From Tannerella sp. (GTDB lineage: Bacteria; Bacteroidota; Bacteroidia; Bacteroidales; Tannerellaceae), in contig JAITHS010000052.1 of the NCBI GenBank assembly GCA_031279875.1, positions 1-13,820 on the forward strand: DNA of 13,820 bases. Reading direction: 5' to 3'. The notes under the pieces are model-generated. The model had not been told where the DNA came from, ran no database searches, and worked only from the letters and a program-made list of their open reading frames with translations. A program made the position numbers and the translations under genes. Below are positions 4,827-11,438 of the stretch, in pieces. How positions within the stretch are numbered: position 1 is the stretch's first letter; every line of letters starts with the position of its first letter.

Positions 4827-6785
4827 ATGGACAAAAATACGATTACAGGATTTGTACTGATTGGCTTGGTATTGATAGGATTCAGTTATTTAAGCCGTCC
4901 GTCAAAAGAGCAGCAGGAGCAGCGGCAACGCTATATTGATTCAATGACGATTGTTAAGCAGCAAGCCGTTGCAGAGCAGTCTCAACGTGAGGCTGCCATA
5001 AAAGAAGCTACGGTGCAAATGACCGTAGCACAGACCGATTCGGCACGACAGGCTGAAATAAACAACAACTACGGCGTCTTTGCTGCGGCGGTAAACCCGA
5101 CAATAACCGATAGCGCTATAACGGAAGTGCCTGATAATCAGGCACTTATAACGCTCGAAAACAACAAGGTAGAACTGCGTATCAGCCCCAAAGGAGGGCA
5201 GATTGTTTACGCCCGCGTGAAAGATTATGTTACCTACGGCAAAGAGCCGCTAATCCTTTTCGACGAGGGCGATGCGAAGTTTGAATTGTCTTTGATTACT
5301 GCTACAAACCACTTAGTTAACACTTCCGATTTGTGGTTCAAGCCGCTCAACAAGACCGCAACAGGAGTTACAATGCGTTTGCAGGCAGGTGAAGTCGGCG
5401 TTATAGACTTTATTTACAGCCTCAAAGCCGATGATTACATGACCGACTTTACGATTGAGACAAGCGGACTGAACGGCGTCCTCGCTCCGTCGAGTAATTC
5501 GCTTGATATTCAGTGGTTTCAACGCATGAGAGCGCAAGAAAAAGGGCGCAAACTCGAAAACCAATACACGGGGCTGTATTACAAGTTTTTATCCGACGAT
5601 GTAGAGCATTTCGGAGAGGCAAGCGACGAAAACAAATCCCTTTCGGCGCGCCTTCGGTGGATTGGTTACAAAAACAAGTTTTTTGCTGCCGCTTTGATTG
5701 CCGACGAAGCGTTATCGGCTACAAATCTGTCGGTTAAGACCGATAATTCGGATATCGGATACCTCAAAACGTTTATGACAACAACGTCGGTACCGTTTAG
5801 CCTGACGCAGAAAGAAAAAATCGGTTTCAAATGGTTTTTCGGACCCGCAAAATACAAATTATTACGCTCTTACGATAAAGACGTACCCAAAGAACGCCGC
5901 CTCGAATTAGACGAACTCATCCCGCTCGGTTATGCGTGGGTAAGACCTATCAGCGTATATTTCATACTGCCGATATTCGACTTCCTGAGCCGCTTTTTCA
6001 GCAATTACGGCATTATTATTCTGTTGCTTACTTTGGCTGTGAAAATTGTGCTTTATCCGCTGACTTACAAGGGATTAATATCGTCGGCAAAGATGCGCGT
6101 ACTGAAACCGCAGGTTGACGAACTGAAACTCAAATACCCAAAGAAAGAGCAGGCTATGGAACTGCAACAGGCAACAATGGCACTTTACAGCAGCGCCGGT
6201 GCAAGTCCGATGTCGGGATGTTTGCCGATGCTGCTCTCAATGCCCATATTGATAGCACTTTACTGGCTTTTCCCGACTGCTATCGAACTGCGTCAGCAAG
6301 GTTTTCTCTGGGCCGAAGACCTCTCTACTTACGACGATGTTTTCCGCTGGAATGCCGATATTCCGCTGATTTCGTTTATGTTAGGTAATCATCTCAGCCT
6401 TTTTTGCGTGCTTGCAACAGTTGTAAGCGTTTTCTACTCTAAAATCAACATGAACATCAGCGGCGGCGGTCAGCAACAAATGCCCGGAATGAACATGATG
6501 ATTTACCTGATGCCGGTTATGATGTTGTTCTTTTTTAACCAAAGCGCATCAGGATTAAGTTATTACTTCCTTATTTCGTCGGTTATAACGATAGCCCAGA
6601 CGATGCTTTTCCGCTATACTATCAATGAACGGAAACTTCTTGCCAAACTCGAAGAAAACAAGAAGAAACCAAAGAAAAAATCCGGCTTTATGAAGCGTCT
6701 CGAAGAAGCCCAGCGTGCGCAAAAAGAACAACTTCGCAAGCAACAACAGGAACGCGACCGTAAAATGAGGTCGGGAAAACGGTAG
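4827..6785 (+). CDS. yidC: Membrane protein insertase YidC
   Basis: YidC inserts and folds inner-membrane proteins, alone or with SecYEG. The 652 residues follow the Gram-negative layout. An N-terminal membrane anchor (about 6-22) is followed by a Gln/Ala-rich, probably coiled stretch (about 28-80), a large periplasmic beta domain (to about 360), and the conserved C-terminal 60KD_IMP membrane core (about 370-610). The core includes YPLTYKGLISSAKMR, the cytoplasmic coil, and SPMSGCLPMLLSMPILIALYW. The tail after about 610 is very rich in Lys, Arg and Gln, as expected for ribosome binding. The positively charged residue of the hydrophilic groove, Arg366 in E. coli, appears to be Lys406 here. 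The gene has its own strong promoter. The oxidoreductase gene follows after 36 nt and may be co-transcribed. Confidence 0.97.
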   Translation: MDKNTITGFVLIGLVLIGFSYLSRPSKEQQEQRQRYIDSMTIVKQQAVAEQSQREAAIKEATVQMTVAQTDSARQAEINNNYGVFAAAVNPTITDSAITEVPDNQALITLENNKVELRISPKGGQIVYARVKDYVTYGKEPLILFDEGDAKFELSLITATNHLVNTSDLWFKPLNKTATGVTMRLQAGEVGVIDFIYSLKADDYMTDFTIETSGLNGVLAPSSNSLDIQWFQRMRAQEKGRKLENQYTGLYYKFLSDDVEHFGEASDENKSLSARLRWIGYKNKFFAAALIADEALSATNLSVKTDNSDIGYLKTFMTTTSVPFSLTQKEKIGFKWFFGPAKYKLLRSYDKDVPKERRLELDELIPLGYAWVRPISVYFILPIFDFLSRFFSNYGIIILLLTLAVKIVLYPLTYKGLISSAKMRVLKPQVDELKLKYPKKEQAMELQQATMALYSSAGASPMSGCLPMLLSMPILIALYWLFPTAIELRQQGFLWAEDLSTYDDVFRWNADIPLISFMLGNHLSLFCVLATVVSVFYSKINMNISGGGQQQMPGMNMMIYLMPVMMLFFFNQSASGLSYYFLISSVITIAQTMLFRYTINERKLLAKLEENKKKPKKKSGFMKRLEEAQRAQKEQLRKQQQERDRKMRSGKR

Positions 6786-6821: not shown

Positions 6822-8165
6822 ATGAAAACAACATCAAGAAGACAATTCATTGCGGCTACCATGACAGGTACGCTTGCCGCCGTCGCGACGCCGATAGTTA
6901 AGGCGAGCGAGAAAATAACCGCTCCGACGCTCATCCCTAATGAGGTTTTCGGAGCTAACGACCGTATCCGTGTCGCCGTGCTTGGCGTCAACGGACGCGG
7001 ACAGTCTCACATCGAAGAGGTCATGAAGCAGGAAAACGCTCAAGTCGTTAATCTCTGCGACCCCGACCTCGTTATAGCCCGCAAGAGAGCCGCCGAGTTT
7101 GAGAAAAATTACGGCAAAAAAGTTGCCGTAGAGCAGGATTTCCGCAAGGTGTACGAAAGCAAAGACATCGACGCCGTAACCCTTGCGACGCCCAACCACT
7201 GGCACGCTCTGCAAGTTATACTCGCTTGTCAGGCCGGAAAAGACGTCTATGTTGAAAAACCCGCTACACATAATATATATGAAGGCGGGAAAATGATAGA
7301 GGCGGCGTACAAATACAACCGCATAGTGCAGCACGGCGTACAGCTGCGCAGTTCCGTCTCTATCCGCGAAGCCATTAAGCATCTGCGCGACGGACTGATA
7401 GGCAGGGTATATATGGCACGCGGGTTAGTTTATCGCTGGCGTCCCGACATCGGCAACAAAGGCGTCTCAAACATACCCGAAGGACTTGATTATGACCTCT
7501 GGTGCGGACCGGCACCGATGGTTCCTTTTACCAAAAACCTTGTCCACTACAACTGGCACTGGCATTGGAACTACGGCAACGGCGATGTCGGCAATCAGGG
7601 TATCCACGAAACAGACCTCTGCATGTGGGGGCTTGACATTTCTTCCCTGCCCGAACGCATCACATCCATGGGAGGTAAATTTCTCTGGGATGACTGTAAG
7701 GAAGTGCCTGAAATTCAGACTTCTATCTATCATTATCCCAAAGAAAAGAAAATAATACAGTTTGAAGTGCGCAACTGGTGTACCAACCTCGAAGACGGCG
7801 CCGGAGTAGGCAACATCTTCTACGGCGACAAAGGTTATCTCGTCGTCAACGGCTACGGCTCCTACCAGTCGTTTCTCGGCGAGAAGCGCGAAAAAGGTCC
7901 GGCACGCTCCGAAAGCGGCGAACTGACATTGCATTTTAAAAACTGGCTCGACGCTATCCGCGCCCGCGATATGAGTATCCAAAACGGACCTGTCGAAACA
8001 GGACATCTCTCGTCCGCACTCGCACATCTGGGCAACATATCTTACCGTCTCGGCAGACAGTTGGATTTTGACCCCGTAGCCGAACAGTTTATTGGCGACG
8101 AAGATGCCAACCGCATGAGAACGCGCGAGTACCGCCAGCCGTTTATTTTGCCGGAAAAGATTTGA
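6822..8165 (+). CDS. Gfo/Idh/MocA family oxidoreductase with Tat signal
   Basis: This is an NAD(P)-dependent sugar or cyclitol dehydrogenase-like protein of 447 residues. The N-terminus has a twin-arginine leader (SRRQF, R6-R7, then a hydrophobic stretch to about A28), so it is predicted to be exported folded with its cofactor. The Rossmann motif GVNGRG is at 55-60, ATPNHWHA at 122-129 and the family EKP motif at 145-147. In the C-terminal domain the block HWHWNYGNGDVGNQGIHETDL (about 246-265) holds the likely catalytic His262. The HWHWNYGNGD block matches the dehydrogenase-type members rather than GH109 glycosidases. The substrate cannot be predicted. No -7 box is seen in the 36 nt after yidC. 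The 3' end overlaps kdsB by 23 bp on the other strand. Confidence 0.9.
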   Translation: MKTTSRRQFIAATMTGTLAAVATPIVKASEKITAPTLIPNEVFGANDRIRVAVLGVNGRGQSHIEEVMKQENAQVVNLCDPDLVIARKRAAEFEKNYGKKVAVEQDFRKVYESKDIDAVTLATPNHWHALQVILACQAGKDVYVEKPATHNIYEGGKMIEAAYKYNRIVQHGVQLRSSVSIREAIKHLRDGLIGRVYMARGLVYRWRPDIGNKGVSNIPEGLDYDLWCGPAPMVPFTKNLVHYNWHWHWNYGNGDVGNQGIHETDLCMWGLDISSLPERITSMGGKFLWDDCKEVPEIQTSIYHYPKEKKIIQFEVRNWCTNLEDGAGVGNIFYGDKGYLVVNGYGSYQSFLGEKREKGPARSESGELTLHFKNWLDAIRARDMSIQNGPVETGHLSSALAHLGNISYRLGRQLDFDPVAEQFIGDEDANRMRTREYRQPFILPEKI

Positions 8166-8919
8166 AACGACAGTTTGCTGTTTCCAAATCTTCCGGCGTA
8201 TCAATGCCGATAGTTTCGACAGTCGTTAATGCAACACTGATGCGATAACCGTTTTGTAGCCAGCGTAACTGTTCGAGGCTTTCGGCTATTTCAAGCGATG
8301 ATTGCGGCAGCGATGTTATCTCTTTCAAAATGTCGCTACGATAGGCGTACATCCCGATATGCTTGTAATAAACATGTTTTTTGAGCCATTCGGTATGCTT
8401 TGTACCTCTTATATAAGGTATTACCGAGCGGCTGAAAAATATCGCTTCGTTGCGGTTGTTTAAAACCACTTTCGGTGAATTGGGATTGAACAGTGTATGC
8501 TCGAAATCGCCGTCTGCATCAAAAGCTTTTACTAACGTAGCAATCTGAGTATCAGCGTTGTCGCTCTTGTCGCTCTTGAAACATGATTTGAGAAGTTCGA
8601 TTTGTTCGGGCTGAATAAACGGCTCGTCGCCCTGAATGTTAATTACGACGTCATATCCGTCGCCGATTTTTTTGTATGCTTCATAACAGCGGTCTGTTCC
8701 GCTGCGATGCTCTGACGAAGTTATGACAACATTTCCGCCAAAAGCGCGTACAGCCTCGAAGATACGTTCATCGTCGGTTGCAACATACAGATTATCAACA
8801 GTATTACAAGCCTGCTCATAAACTCTCCTTATCATCGTTTTGCCGCCGATGTCAGCCAGCGGTTTGCCCGGAAACCGCGTTGAAGCATAGCGGGAAGGTA
8901 TTATACCAAGGAATTTCAT
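8143..8919 (-). CDS. kdsB: 3-deoxy-manno-octulosonate cytidylyltransferase
   Basis: The enzyme activates Kdo for lipopolysaccharide: CTP + Kdo gives CMP-Kdo + PPi, in the cytosol. The N-terminal nucleotide-binding motif reads IIPSRYASTRFPGKPL. VINIQGDEPFI follows (metal and substrate site), then HIGMYAYR and the C-terminal GIDTPEDLETA. The ATG at 8919 is chosen because MKFLGIIPSRYAS is the standard family start. It gives 258 residues. An in-frame TTG two codons earlier would begin inside the stop region of the upstream gene. The ATG follows that gene's TGA by 2 nt, so translational coupling is likely. The stop lies inside the last codons of the converging oxidoreductase gene. Confidence 0.97.
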   Translation of the reverse strand: MKFLGIIPSRYASTRFPGKPLADIGGKTMIRRVYEQACNTVDNLYVATDDERIFEAVRAFGGNVVITSSEHRSGTDRCYEAYKKIGDGYDVVINIQGDEPFIQPEQIELLKSCFKSDKSDNADTQIATLVKAFDADGDFEHTLFNPNSPKVVLNNRNEAIFFSRSVIPYIRGTKHTEWLKKHVYYKHIGMYAYRSDILKEITSLPQSSLEIAESLEQLRWLQNGYRISVALTTVETIGIDTPEDLETANCRFKSFPAK

Positions 8920-8921
8920 TT

Positions 8922-10502
8922 TCAAAACAGCGGAATATCACTGCAAGCGTTGGGGGTGCGGACGCGCAGCAGATTAGTAACTGTCGGGGCTATCTCGGTG
9001 GCATAGACGGCACGGTCGAAGATGTTATGTTTCAGACCGTTACCAAAAAAAATCAGCGGGGTTAAAACGGTGTTGTTGCGTTTGATGTTCGATTGTCCCG
9101 ACTGTTCGTCTTCGATACCCCAGCCGGGTTGAAGTTTGATAATGATGTCGCCGCGACCGATATGAAATGTGCCGTAGCGCATCGCTGCCGAGCCTTCGTT
9201 CCAGTCGCCTTGACGCAGAACATTGTCGGTAACAGCCTGCTGGACACCGCTAAACTCCGAAACAAACTCTGCCGCTTTGTTTTGAACCGTTACAAGGTCA
9301 AGTTTCTCATCTTCAATGACTTTGCGGTTGAGATAAATTTGTTTGTCATAATAGCCTTTGACCCAGTTTTTTTGTCCGTACATAGCCATCAGATACATGT
9401 TAAGCAACGCCTGACAACGTTTCGGATGAAATGTTCCGCCAACGTCATGTTTATCTTCCGTAACTTTTTGATTATCATAATAATAGCCCGTGCCTGTCAA
9501 AACTACAAGCGTTTTTGACAGACCGATTTTTTTATCAATAACGTCAAGCAGTTCGCCGATGCACTTATCTATCTGATAATAATTATCTTGCACTTCTTGG
9601 GTATAATATTTGTCGATAACATCGGCAAAATTACCGCCGTAAAATGTAATCGACAGCATATCAGTCGTTTGATTGGAACCGAGATTACCTTTATCAACAA
9701 ATTCAACGGCAAGTTTTGTTATTTCGCTGTTGACAAGCGGAGATGTTTTGAAACGCGGATAGCAGCCAACTTCCCTTTCGTTGAAAGTATATTTAAAAGG
9801 CTTTTTATCAACCACATACGGAAGCGCCGAATATTTGTCGGCAATCATCAACGGCTCATAAACTAACGATGGCAACCGCTGTGAGAGCGACGTTTGACCA
9901 ATGTTGAGTTTGTCAACATAAGGCGGAATCGTTTTGTAGAACGTCGTAGTTGCCCACTTACCGTTGTAGTCGTCGAGCCAGAAAGCGCCGTCGGCAACAT
10001 GACCGGCCGAGATGATGGCGTTTTCGGCTTCGGGTGCAATGGAATAGACTAAACTTTTGCCTTTTGAAGCCACTTTCAACTCATCGCCGACGGTCGAAGC
10101 AAGCAGGTTTGCGGGCGAGAAGTTTTGATGGGTATAGTTACCCAGAAACTGCGGGTCGTAGAGGCATGACTGTTCTTTTTCACGCTCGAAATCATATCGC
10201 ATAACGCCCGTAATACTGTGATAGCAAGGGTTTGAGCCGGTAAACAGCGTGGCAAACGAACTTGCGCGGTCGATATTACTGAACTCATACTGAACATGCT
10301 TATATACAATTCCTTCGTTAAGCAGACGCTTAAAGCCTTTTTCGCCGTATGACGGTTTGAAATATTCCAACCAGTCGCCGCGCAACTGGTCAACAGTAAT
10401 CCAGACCACTAATTCGGGAACGTGCTGCTGCGCACGAACCGAGATATAAAAACCTGAAAATAAACAAATTGTAACAAATAATAATTTCTTCATAAAAGTC
10501 AT
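8922..10502 (-). CDS. Exported alkaline-phosphatase-superfamily protein, active site apparently lost
   Basis: The 526 residues start with a Sec signal peptide (KKLLFVTICLFSGFYISVRA, cleavage near A24). The first conserved block, WITVDQLRGDWL, keeps the metal-binding Asp38. FATLFTGSNPCYHSITG, AGHVADGAFWLDD, PLIFFGNGLK and YATEIAPTVTNLL also align well with PafA-type phosphatases. Aligned by eye with Elizabethkingia PafA, however, the nucleophile Thr79 is Arg79. Asn100 is Val100, Lys162 and Arg164 are Glu158 and Glu160, and Asp305 and His309 are Asn291 and Val295. Asp352-His353 are Thr338-Gly339 and His486 is Ser471. Phosphomonoesterase activity is therefore unlikely, and a binding or scaffolding role in the periplasm is inferred. 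ATG 10502 lies 3 nt after the trxB stop. M4 (10493) is an alternative start. Confidence 0.88.
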   Translation of the reverse strand: MTFMKKLLFVTICLFSGFYISVRAQQHVPELVVWITVDQLRGDWLEYFKPSYGEKGFKRLLNEGIVYKHVQYEFSNIDRASSFATLFTGSNPCYHSITGVMRYDFEREKEQSCLYDPQFLGNYTHQNFSPANLLASTVGDELKVASKGKSLVYSIAPEAENAIISAGHVADGAFWLDDYNGKWATTTFYKTIPPYVDKLNIGQTSLSQRLPSLVYEPLMIADKYSALPYVVDKKPFKYTFNEREVGCYPRFKTSPLVNSEITKLAVEFVDKGNLGSNQTTDMLSITFYGGNFADVIDKYYTQEVQDNYYQIDKCIGELLDVIDKKIGLSKTLVVLTGTGYYYDNQKVTEDKHDVGGTFHPKRCQALLNMYLMAMYGQKNWVKGYYDKQIYLNRKVIEDEKLDLVTVQNKAAEFVSEFSGVQQAVTDNVLRQGDWNEGSAAMRYGTFHIGRGDIIIKLQPGWGIEDEQSGQSNIKRNNTVLTPLIFFGNGLKHNIFDRAVYATEIAPTVTNLLRVRTPNACSDIPLF

Positions 10503-10505
10503 ACT

Positions 10506-11438
10506 TTAACCGTATAACAGGAACCTTTCCGCTTCGATAGCTGCTTTACAGCCGGCGGCGGCGGCAGTTATGGCTTGGCGGTATTCCGGGTCGGCTACGT
10601 CGCCTGCCGCAAAGACACCGGGTATGGTGGTGCGCGGAGTACCGTTTTCGGTAACGAGATAACCTTTGTCGCAGGTTTTGAGCCATGCCTTAAACACTTC
10701 CGTATTAGGCTTATGACCTATTGCAAGGAAGAATCCGTCGATGGCGATGTCAACTTTTGCTTCGTCGGGTTCGCCTTTACGATAAACGAGGTGTGCGCCT
10801 TCGACACCGTTTTCGCCGAACAGTCCCAATGTGTTATGTTCAAATAATATTTTAATATTCTCTTTTTCGGACACTTTTGACTGCATTATTTTGGATGCTC
10901 TCAAAAACGGTTTGCGTACTATGAGATAGACCTGTTTGGCGAGAGAAGCTAAATAAAGCGCTTCTTCGCAGGCTGTATCGCCGCCACCGACTACGGCTAC
11001 GGTCTTTTTGCGGTAGAAAAATCCGTCGCACGTAGCACATGCCGAGACGCCCATGCCCGCGTATTTGGTTTCGTCGGCTAATCCGAGATATTTGGCTGAT
11101 GCGCCTGTGGCAATAATAAGTGTCTCTGTTTCAATGACTTTCGAGCCGTCTATTGTGATTTTAAACGGGCGTACCGACAAATCGGCGGCGGTTGCGATGC
11201 CGCTACGTATATCTGTGCCGAAGCGTGCTGCCTGCCGTTTCAGGTCGTCCATCATCGCCATGCCGCTGATGCCTTCCGGATATCCGGGGAAGTTTTCGAT
11301 GTCGGTAGTCATAGTCAGTTGCCCGCCGGGTTGTATGCCTTCATACAAAATCGGTTGCAGATTAGCCCTTGAAGCGTAAATGGCTGCTGTGAAGCCTGCC
11401 GGTCCCGAACCGATTATCAAGCATTTGGTTTTTTCCAT
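10506..11438 (-). CDS. trxB: Thioredoxin-disulfide reductase
   Basis: This flavoprotein transfers electrons from NADPH through FAD and a Cys pair to thioredoxin in the cytosol. The length, 310 residues, is typical. The FAD site GSGPAGFTAAIYASRA is at 10-25, the redox-active CATC at 134-137, the NADPH Rossmann motif GGGDTA at 151-156, and the C-terminal FAD block GVFAAGDVAD near 275-285. The NADPH 2'-phosphate motif, HRRxxxR in E. coli, reads VRKxxxR at 174-180. Three basic residues remain, so NADPH use is still likely. The start follows the upstream gene by 3 nt, and the stop precedes the phosphatase-like gene by 3 nt. Confidence 0.96.
   Translation of the reverse strand: MEKTKCLIIGSGPAGFTAAIYASRANLQPILYEGIQPGGQLTMTTDIENFPGYPEGISGMAMMDDLKRQAARFGTDIRSGIATAADLSVRPFKITIDGSKVIETETLIIATGASAKYLGLADETKYAGMGVSACATCDGFFYRKKTVAVVGGGDTACEEALYLASLAKQVYLIVRKPFLRASKIMQSKVSEKENIKILFEHNTLGLFGENGVEGAHLVYRKGEPDEAKVDIAIDGFFLAIGHKPNTEVFKAWLKTCDKGYLVTENGTPRTTIPGVFAAGDVADPEYRQAITAAAAGCKAAIEAERFLLYG

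Follow-up and report, generated by a model that had tools for sequence, protein, structure and literature searches.

The surface machinery of gut Bacteroidales depends on lipoproteins that are acylated at the N-terminus, and the enzyme responsible, Lnb, is a recent discovery. Passages of one report (PMC12994826) describe Lnb (DUF4105) as a Bacteroides lipoprotein N-acyltransferase, a lipid enzyme of the permuted NlpC/P60 type. Two members of the alkaline phosphatase (AP) superfamily are the other relevant points of comparison. The first is PafA, an alkaline phosphatase of Elizabethkingia (PDB 5TJ3 and 5TOO; NCBIfam NF042991). The second is YejM (PbgA), from another branch of the superfamily, whose AP-fold domain lies on the periplasmic side of the inner membrane and which is linked to envelope lipid biogenesis and has a role other than that of a classical phosphatase. 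The protein discussed herein, which we call pseudo-PafA, would share each of these characteristics with YejM. It is encoded by Tannerella sp. in what we refer to as the window, meaning the whole stretch of 13,820 nucleotides that was analysed.

The pseudo-PafA gene has an intact reading frame of 526 codons, as the initial annotation of this DNA had claimed, and we add that it lies on the minus strand (Table 1). Its translation contains the fold motifs quoted in that annotation, including the LFTG block and the TEIAPTVTNLL tail. The protein matches the Pfam model Phosphodiest (PF01663) with 56.7 bits, above the gathering cut-off of 23, and the NCBIfam PafA model NF042991 with 272.2 bits (E = 7.5e-81), which is below the equivalog cut-off of 650. 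The predicted structure is confident and intact, with a PafA fold that spans the full length of the protein, and a Foldseek comparison of this model with PafA gives an E value of 9e-43. Kinship to PafA is far beyond chance. By eye, the N-terminus (KK, a hydrophobic stretch and then VRA-Q) looks like the good signal peptide that had been proposed, and Gln25 is conserved in 63/67 rows of the clade. No other hydrophobic segment is present, and hence the window protein does not have the chain of five helices plus AP fold seen in YejM/PbgA. The Tannerella genome carries 15 PF01663 matches, several of which are pieces of longer frames, and only one matches pseudo-PafA.

Table 1. Features of the pseudo-PafA locus (window positions).
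Feature	Positions	Strand	Remarks
YidC-like membrane insertase frame	4827..6785		Two genes away from kdsB; assigned by eye from its translation
kdsB, directly downstream	8143..8919	minus	ATG 2 bases past the pseudo-PafA stop; alternative TTG start at 8925; TIGR00466 over cut-off
pseudo-PafA gene	8922..10502	minus	526 amino acids plus stop, read from 10502 down to 8922 with the stop included; PafA fold without catalytic residues
Thr338-Gly339, replacing metal ligands Asp352-His353	9486..9491	minus	Gly in 74/77 rows
Asn291 and Val295, replacing metal ligands Asp305 and His309	9618..9632	minus	From alignment
Glu158 and Glu160, replacing phosphate-contacting Lys162 and Arg164	10023..10031	minus	From alignment
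Arg79, replacing nucleophile Thr79	10266..10268	minus	Thr in 0/77 rows
Asp38, sole retained catalytic residue	10389..10391	minus	Asp in 72/76 rows
Probable signal peptide	10428..10502	minus	Codons 1-25, VRA-Q junction; by eye
trxB, directly upstream	10506..11438	minus	3-base gap; TIGR01292 over cut-off

The window protein was compared with PafA (PDB 5TJ3) at ten catalytic residues (positions 38, 79, 100, 162, 164, 305, 309, 352, 353 and 486) by using several alignments, including one made with MAFFT. Nine of the ten are gone, which bears out the earlier claim of near-total loss of the active site in an AP-superfamily protein. The assignments listed in the initial annotation (D38 retained, with R79, V100 at the position of Asn100, E158, E160, N291, V295, T338 and G339) all agree with these alignments. 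The one residue that is less certain is the equivalent of His486, which had been given as Ser471. Histidine is indeed absent there in every alignment, but serine appears in only one of them, with a gap or asparagine in the others.

This loss is not peculiar to the window protein. We tabulated 77 orthologue rows, which include the window, one locus counted twice (L080, identical to L107) and near relatives, and which exclude L086 (truncated by a contig end, and also substituted), L061 and L044-type duplicates, together with two groups treated separately (L087-L106 and L132/L133/L142-L171). The most PafA residues kept in any row is three of ten. Thr79, Lys162, Arg164, Asp352 and His353 are each found in 0/77 rows and His486 in 0/74, and the remainder are kept to varying extents (His309 in 1/76, Asp305 in 4/77, Asn100 in 19/77 and Asp38 in 72/76). 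The search for orthologues with the canonical residues, which had been suggested as a way to refute the pseudophosphatase claim, found none within the orthologous clade. Likewise, the conserved columns of the orthologue residue tables, which report on sequence positions rather than on geometry, offer no replacement metal ligands. In 14 pairs of close relatives, dN/dS ranges from 0.034 to 0.104 (17 pairs were compared, of which three were saturated; the window protein is in none of the 17). A lone mutant or a recent decay is therefore ruled out by the 77 substituted rows and the low dN/dS values, and the confident, intact fold likewise accords with the original judgment that decay is not recent. 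Site loss is thus combined with strong purifying selection across the clade, as gauged from pairs other than the window protein, and this combination is characteristic of a pseudoenzyme. The best reading is that the window protein is one of a line of pseudoenzymes in Bacteroidales that derive from PafA, and the earlier description of it as an exported pseudophosphatase is supported, with export being suggested by the apparent signal peptide.

The remodelled site is itself conserved in part, with Asn at the position of Asp305 in 56/77 rows, Thr or Ser at that of Asp352 in 75/77 and Gly at that of His353 in 74/77. Perhaps, then, the protein is an enzyme with new chemistry in which other residues of the pocket drive a metal-free reaction. 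We consider this very unlikely, because position 79 is variable (Arg in 20 rows, Gln in 20, Glu in 17, Lys in 7, and others) and differs again in the family with fusions described below, which is unlike a catalytic site, and because few clade-specific conserved residues present themselves as candidate catalysts. Residues conserved in the clade, numbered as in the window protein, are Gly121, Pro157, Glu260, Gln305, Gly339, Arg513 and Arg515.

Intact homologues do exist, and they serve as a control. A class-wide search provided 20 control loci, 19 from outside the window's order and one from within it. All 19 outside proteins, which represent 19 of the 140 such genomes with a match and are mostly top-scoring, keep 10/10 residues, and the one from the window's order keeps 1/10. 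Thus, the alignment does report intact sites where they are present. Within the order, L096, L104, L105 and L106 also keep all ten. Whereas pseudo-PafA orthologues adjoin genes for Lnb and SecA, the intact outside-order homologues that were fetched adjoin neither. Across the class (247 genomes), matches of at least 297 bits are confined to the window's order, and the best match outside it scores 231.8 bits.

In a 71-row tree, a branch with support 99 sets the Lnb/SecA-linked proteins (26 rows) apart, and these join a second family (f42), which is the home of the fusions, with support 98. This tree was made by a quick search with SH-aLRT support only, and 22 of its 68 inner branches are weak, with several long branches unsure. 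An earlier 94-row tree recovered the same linked group (71 rows, support 98). Both the linked proteins and f42 are surrounded by a grade of Bacteroidales homologues whose sites are partly lost, L096 alone being intact, and the tree would suit a stepwise loss of the site in one lineage. Tabulated members of this grade (L087-L095 and L097-L099) keep two to four of the ten residues, and several reside near PcrB, PPTase, GldD or GldE genes rather than near Lnb. Another Bacteroidales relative (G483:C1:1520468-1521841) has a split match (query 21-190 and 251-526) in one frame of 477 codons, which suggests that a middle segment has been lost.

The initial annotation placed the gene in one operon with kdsB and trxB. 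Given gaps of 3 and 2 bases, this local trxB-gene-kdsB operon is as described, but it fails as a functional clue because the other compared loci do not have trxB or kdsB. In the initial set of loci compared, these two genes were found beside pseudo-PafA only in the window's own copies, and kdsB and trxB as functional partners by general rule were rejected in favor of the context that is common in this set, namely Lnb and SecA. These recurring neighbours, as identified by Pfam and NCBIfam models, are present in 64 (Lnb) and 67 (SecA) of the loci compared. No Lnb was found in the Tannerella genome assembly, which is 80% complete and in 410 contigs. The possibility that Lnt replaces Lnb in this genome found no support, as the one partial match scores 35.5 bits against a cut-off of 132.9. 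A lone secA is present on another contig of this genome (G000:C356, locus L137), with an AAA-ATPase-like open reading frame upstream on the opposite strand.

The association with Lnb is extensive. Of 198 Bacteroidales genomes, 114 have a match to pseudo-PafA, 91 to the Lnb model and 190 to the SecA model. Of the 30 strongest orthologues (at least 297 bits, window included), 27 are immediately preceded by Lnb in the same orientation, the exceptions being the window, G144 and G030. Of 41 matches within the window's genus, all but that of the window itself (40/41) have Lnb upstream. The distance from the Lnb stop to the pseudo-PafA start, for start codons picked by script at 61 loci, has a median of -4 bases; 17 loci have an overlap of exactly four bases and 50 have a gap of 30 bases or fewer. 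The Lnb model used (NF051878) has an equivalog cut-off of 550 bits, which is exceeded in 2 of the 198 genomes compared with the 91 that have a match, and the neighbour at L083 is over both Pfam Lnb cut-offs. The GHT histidine and DNC cysteine of the permuted NlpC/P60 core, which by motif are the probable catalytic pair of Lnb, are kept in 45/45 Lnb rows (6 fusions and 39 separate proteins). Thus, this partner looks active. It is the acyltransferase itself, and its fold is unrelated to that of pseudo-PafA. On the opposite strand beside Lnb at four loci (L082, L085, L118 and L122) are genes for a type III pantothenate kinase, an LptC-like protein and GldE, surroundings that constitute an envelope-biogenesis neighbourhood.

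The converse association is looser, since pseudo-PafA has no match in 14 of the 91 genomes that carry Lnb. In two genomes (G068 and G173, loci L135 and L136), Lnb and secA adjoin at distances of 219 and 211 bases, and no pseudophosphatase was found between them or elsewhere in either genome, which is an apparent loss. Lnb therefore need not depend on pseudo-PafA. In Bacteroides thetaiotaomicron, the genes for Lnb and SecA presumably also lie close together, separated by a single gene.

The gene for SecA is directly downstream in 24 of the 30 strongest orthologues by coordinates and in three more (L112, L126 and L129) by locus map. This recurrence in 27/30 raises the prospect that pseudo-PafA is a chaperone or holdase that serves the Sec pathway or exported lipoproteins generally, and that Lnb adjoins simply because all three serve export. 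However, the link to Lnb persists in two genomes (G041 and G151) where secA is elsewhere, and SecA is cytoplasmic whereas pseudo-PafA is apparently exported. In addition, the fusions join pseudo-PafA to Lnb, and none to SecA were seen in the 81 genomes of the fusion family. We therefore view a general export chaperone as quite unlikely.

These fusions provide a further connection to Lnb. In G041, Lnb and then the pseudophosphatase are encoded by a single open frame of 924 codons. Such fusions, with no internal stop, are found in 7/81 genomes of one family (six distinct sequences, as two are identical), and in three more genomes of this family a stop codon separates the two halves. In the six distinct fusions, too, the pseudophosphatase part has lost the active site. 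In several other genomes of the family, Lnb and pseudo-PafA are far apart or on different contigs. A model of the fused protein has a pLDDT of 91.7 and predicts a helix (residues 390-411) that lies between the five helices of the Lnb region and the PafA fold. The pTM is only 0.72, and so the model does not fix the relative placement of the halves or establish contact between them.

Among pseudo-PafA proteins, only the fusions have five membrane helices and an AP fold in one chain, an arrangement like that of YejM, whose five membrane helices and periplasmic AP-fold domain are described in parts of PMC7576196. By analogy with YejM, whose AP-fold domain has a part in controlling LPS synthesis, pseudo-PafA could be a regulator or sensor, rather than an enzyme subunit, that binds a periplasmic lipid, lipoprotein or glycan and modulates either Lnb or the Sec pathway, and the divergent envelope genes found in some lineages (e.g., LptC and GldE) are in keeping with this idea. 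However, those same parts of PMC7576196 report that YejM keeps Thr302 and a metal, and there is no signalling gene among the conserved neighbours at the loci compared. Furthermore, with the ligands at both metal sites largely lost, Lys162 replaced by Asp, Asn or Glu in 65/77 rows and Arg164 by Glu or Asp in 54/77, phosphate sensing at the old site is disfavored. Thus, a regulatory role seems unlikely to us, and the earlier proposal that it senses glycans or lipids bearing phosphate or sulfate loses ground, although the protein may bind another ligand, or a lipid elsewhere on its surface.

A neighbour that is catalytically dead, apparently exported, conserved, translationally coupled to Lnb and sometimes fused to it is best read as a periplasmic, non-catalytic partner of Lnb, to which we assign a probability of roughly 0.58. 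From the fold, site loss, conservation, linkage and fusion that were computed, we infer export, contact with Lnb and a task for the protein. Pseudo-PafA would be exported to the periplasm, where it would touch either the periplasmic catalytic domain or the membrane part of Lnb, itself in the inner membrane. Its task there might be to hold and present the diacylated lipoprotein that serves as acceptor, fresh from the Sec pathway, or else to stabilize Lnb. In the fusions, what was once the signal peptide is predicted to form an additional membrane helix, so that the PafA fold and the catalytic domain of Lnb would share one side of the membrane. In the Tannerella genome, the gene would have moved into the trxB-kdsB operon, and its product would act in trans. 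Co-expression could be an alternative source of both adjacency and fusion. The suggestion in the initial annotation of an envelope scaffold pointed in the right direction, even though the kdsB-trxB operon was not the clue to it.

A more specific version of the Lnb-partner reading is that the N-acylation enzyme has two components, in which a dedicated dead PafA subunit uses its acidic pocket to dock the free N-terminus of a diacylated lipoprotein and presents it to Lnb at the Sec exit. With its charge reversed, the former phosphate pocket could indeed accommodate a ligand with positive charge, for example a free N-terminus, but we regard this detailed scheme as rather doubtful.

Our literature search, which mostly stopped short of subscription papers, including the original Lnb paper, turned up no description of an inactivated PafA homologue or of pseudo-PafA. 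We rate the protein, on the basis of sequence comparisons, as an AP-superfamily pseudoenzyme with an unexpected and testable partner. A pseudophosphatase that resides beside Lnb, or within the same polypeptide, points to an unrecognized component of lipoprotein N-acylation. Moreover, the label 'PafA' or 'alkaline phosphatase' may, in gut Bacteroidales, be attached to proteins that cannot act as phosphatases, which would mislead surveys of the phosphorus cycle; in the case of one such survey (PMC8115612), parts of its text indicate that gut anaerobes are outside its scope. Finally, a lineage whose members range from intact through partly to fully degraded should be useful for studying the transition from enzyme to partner protein.
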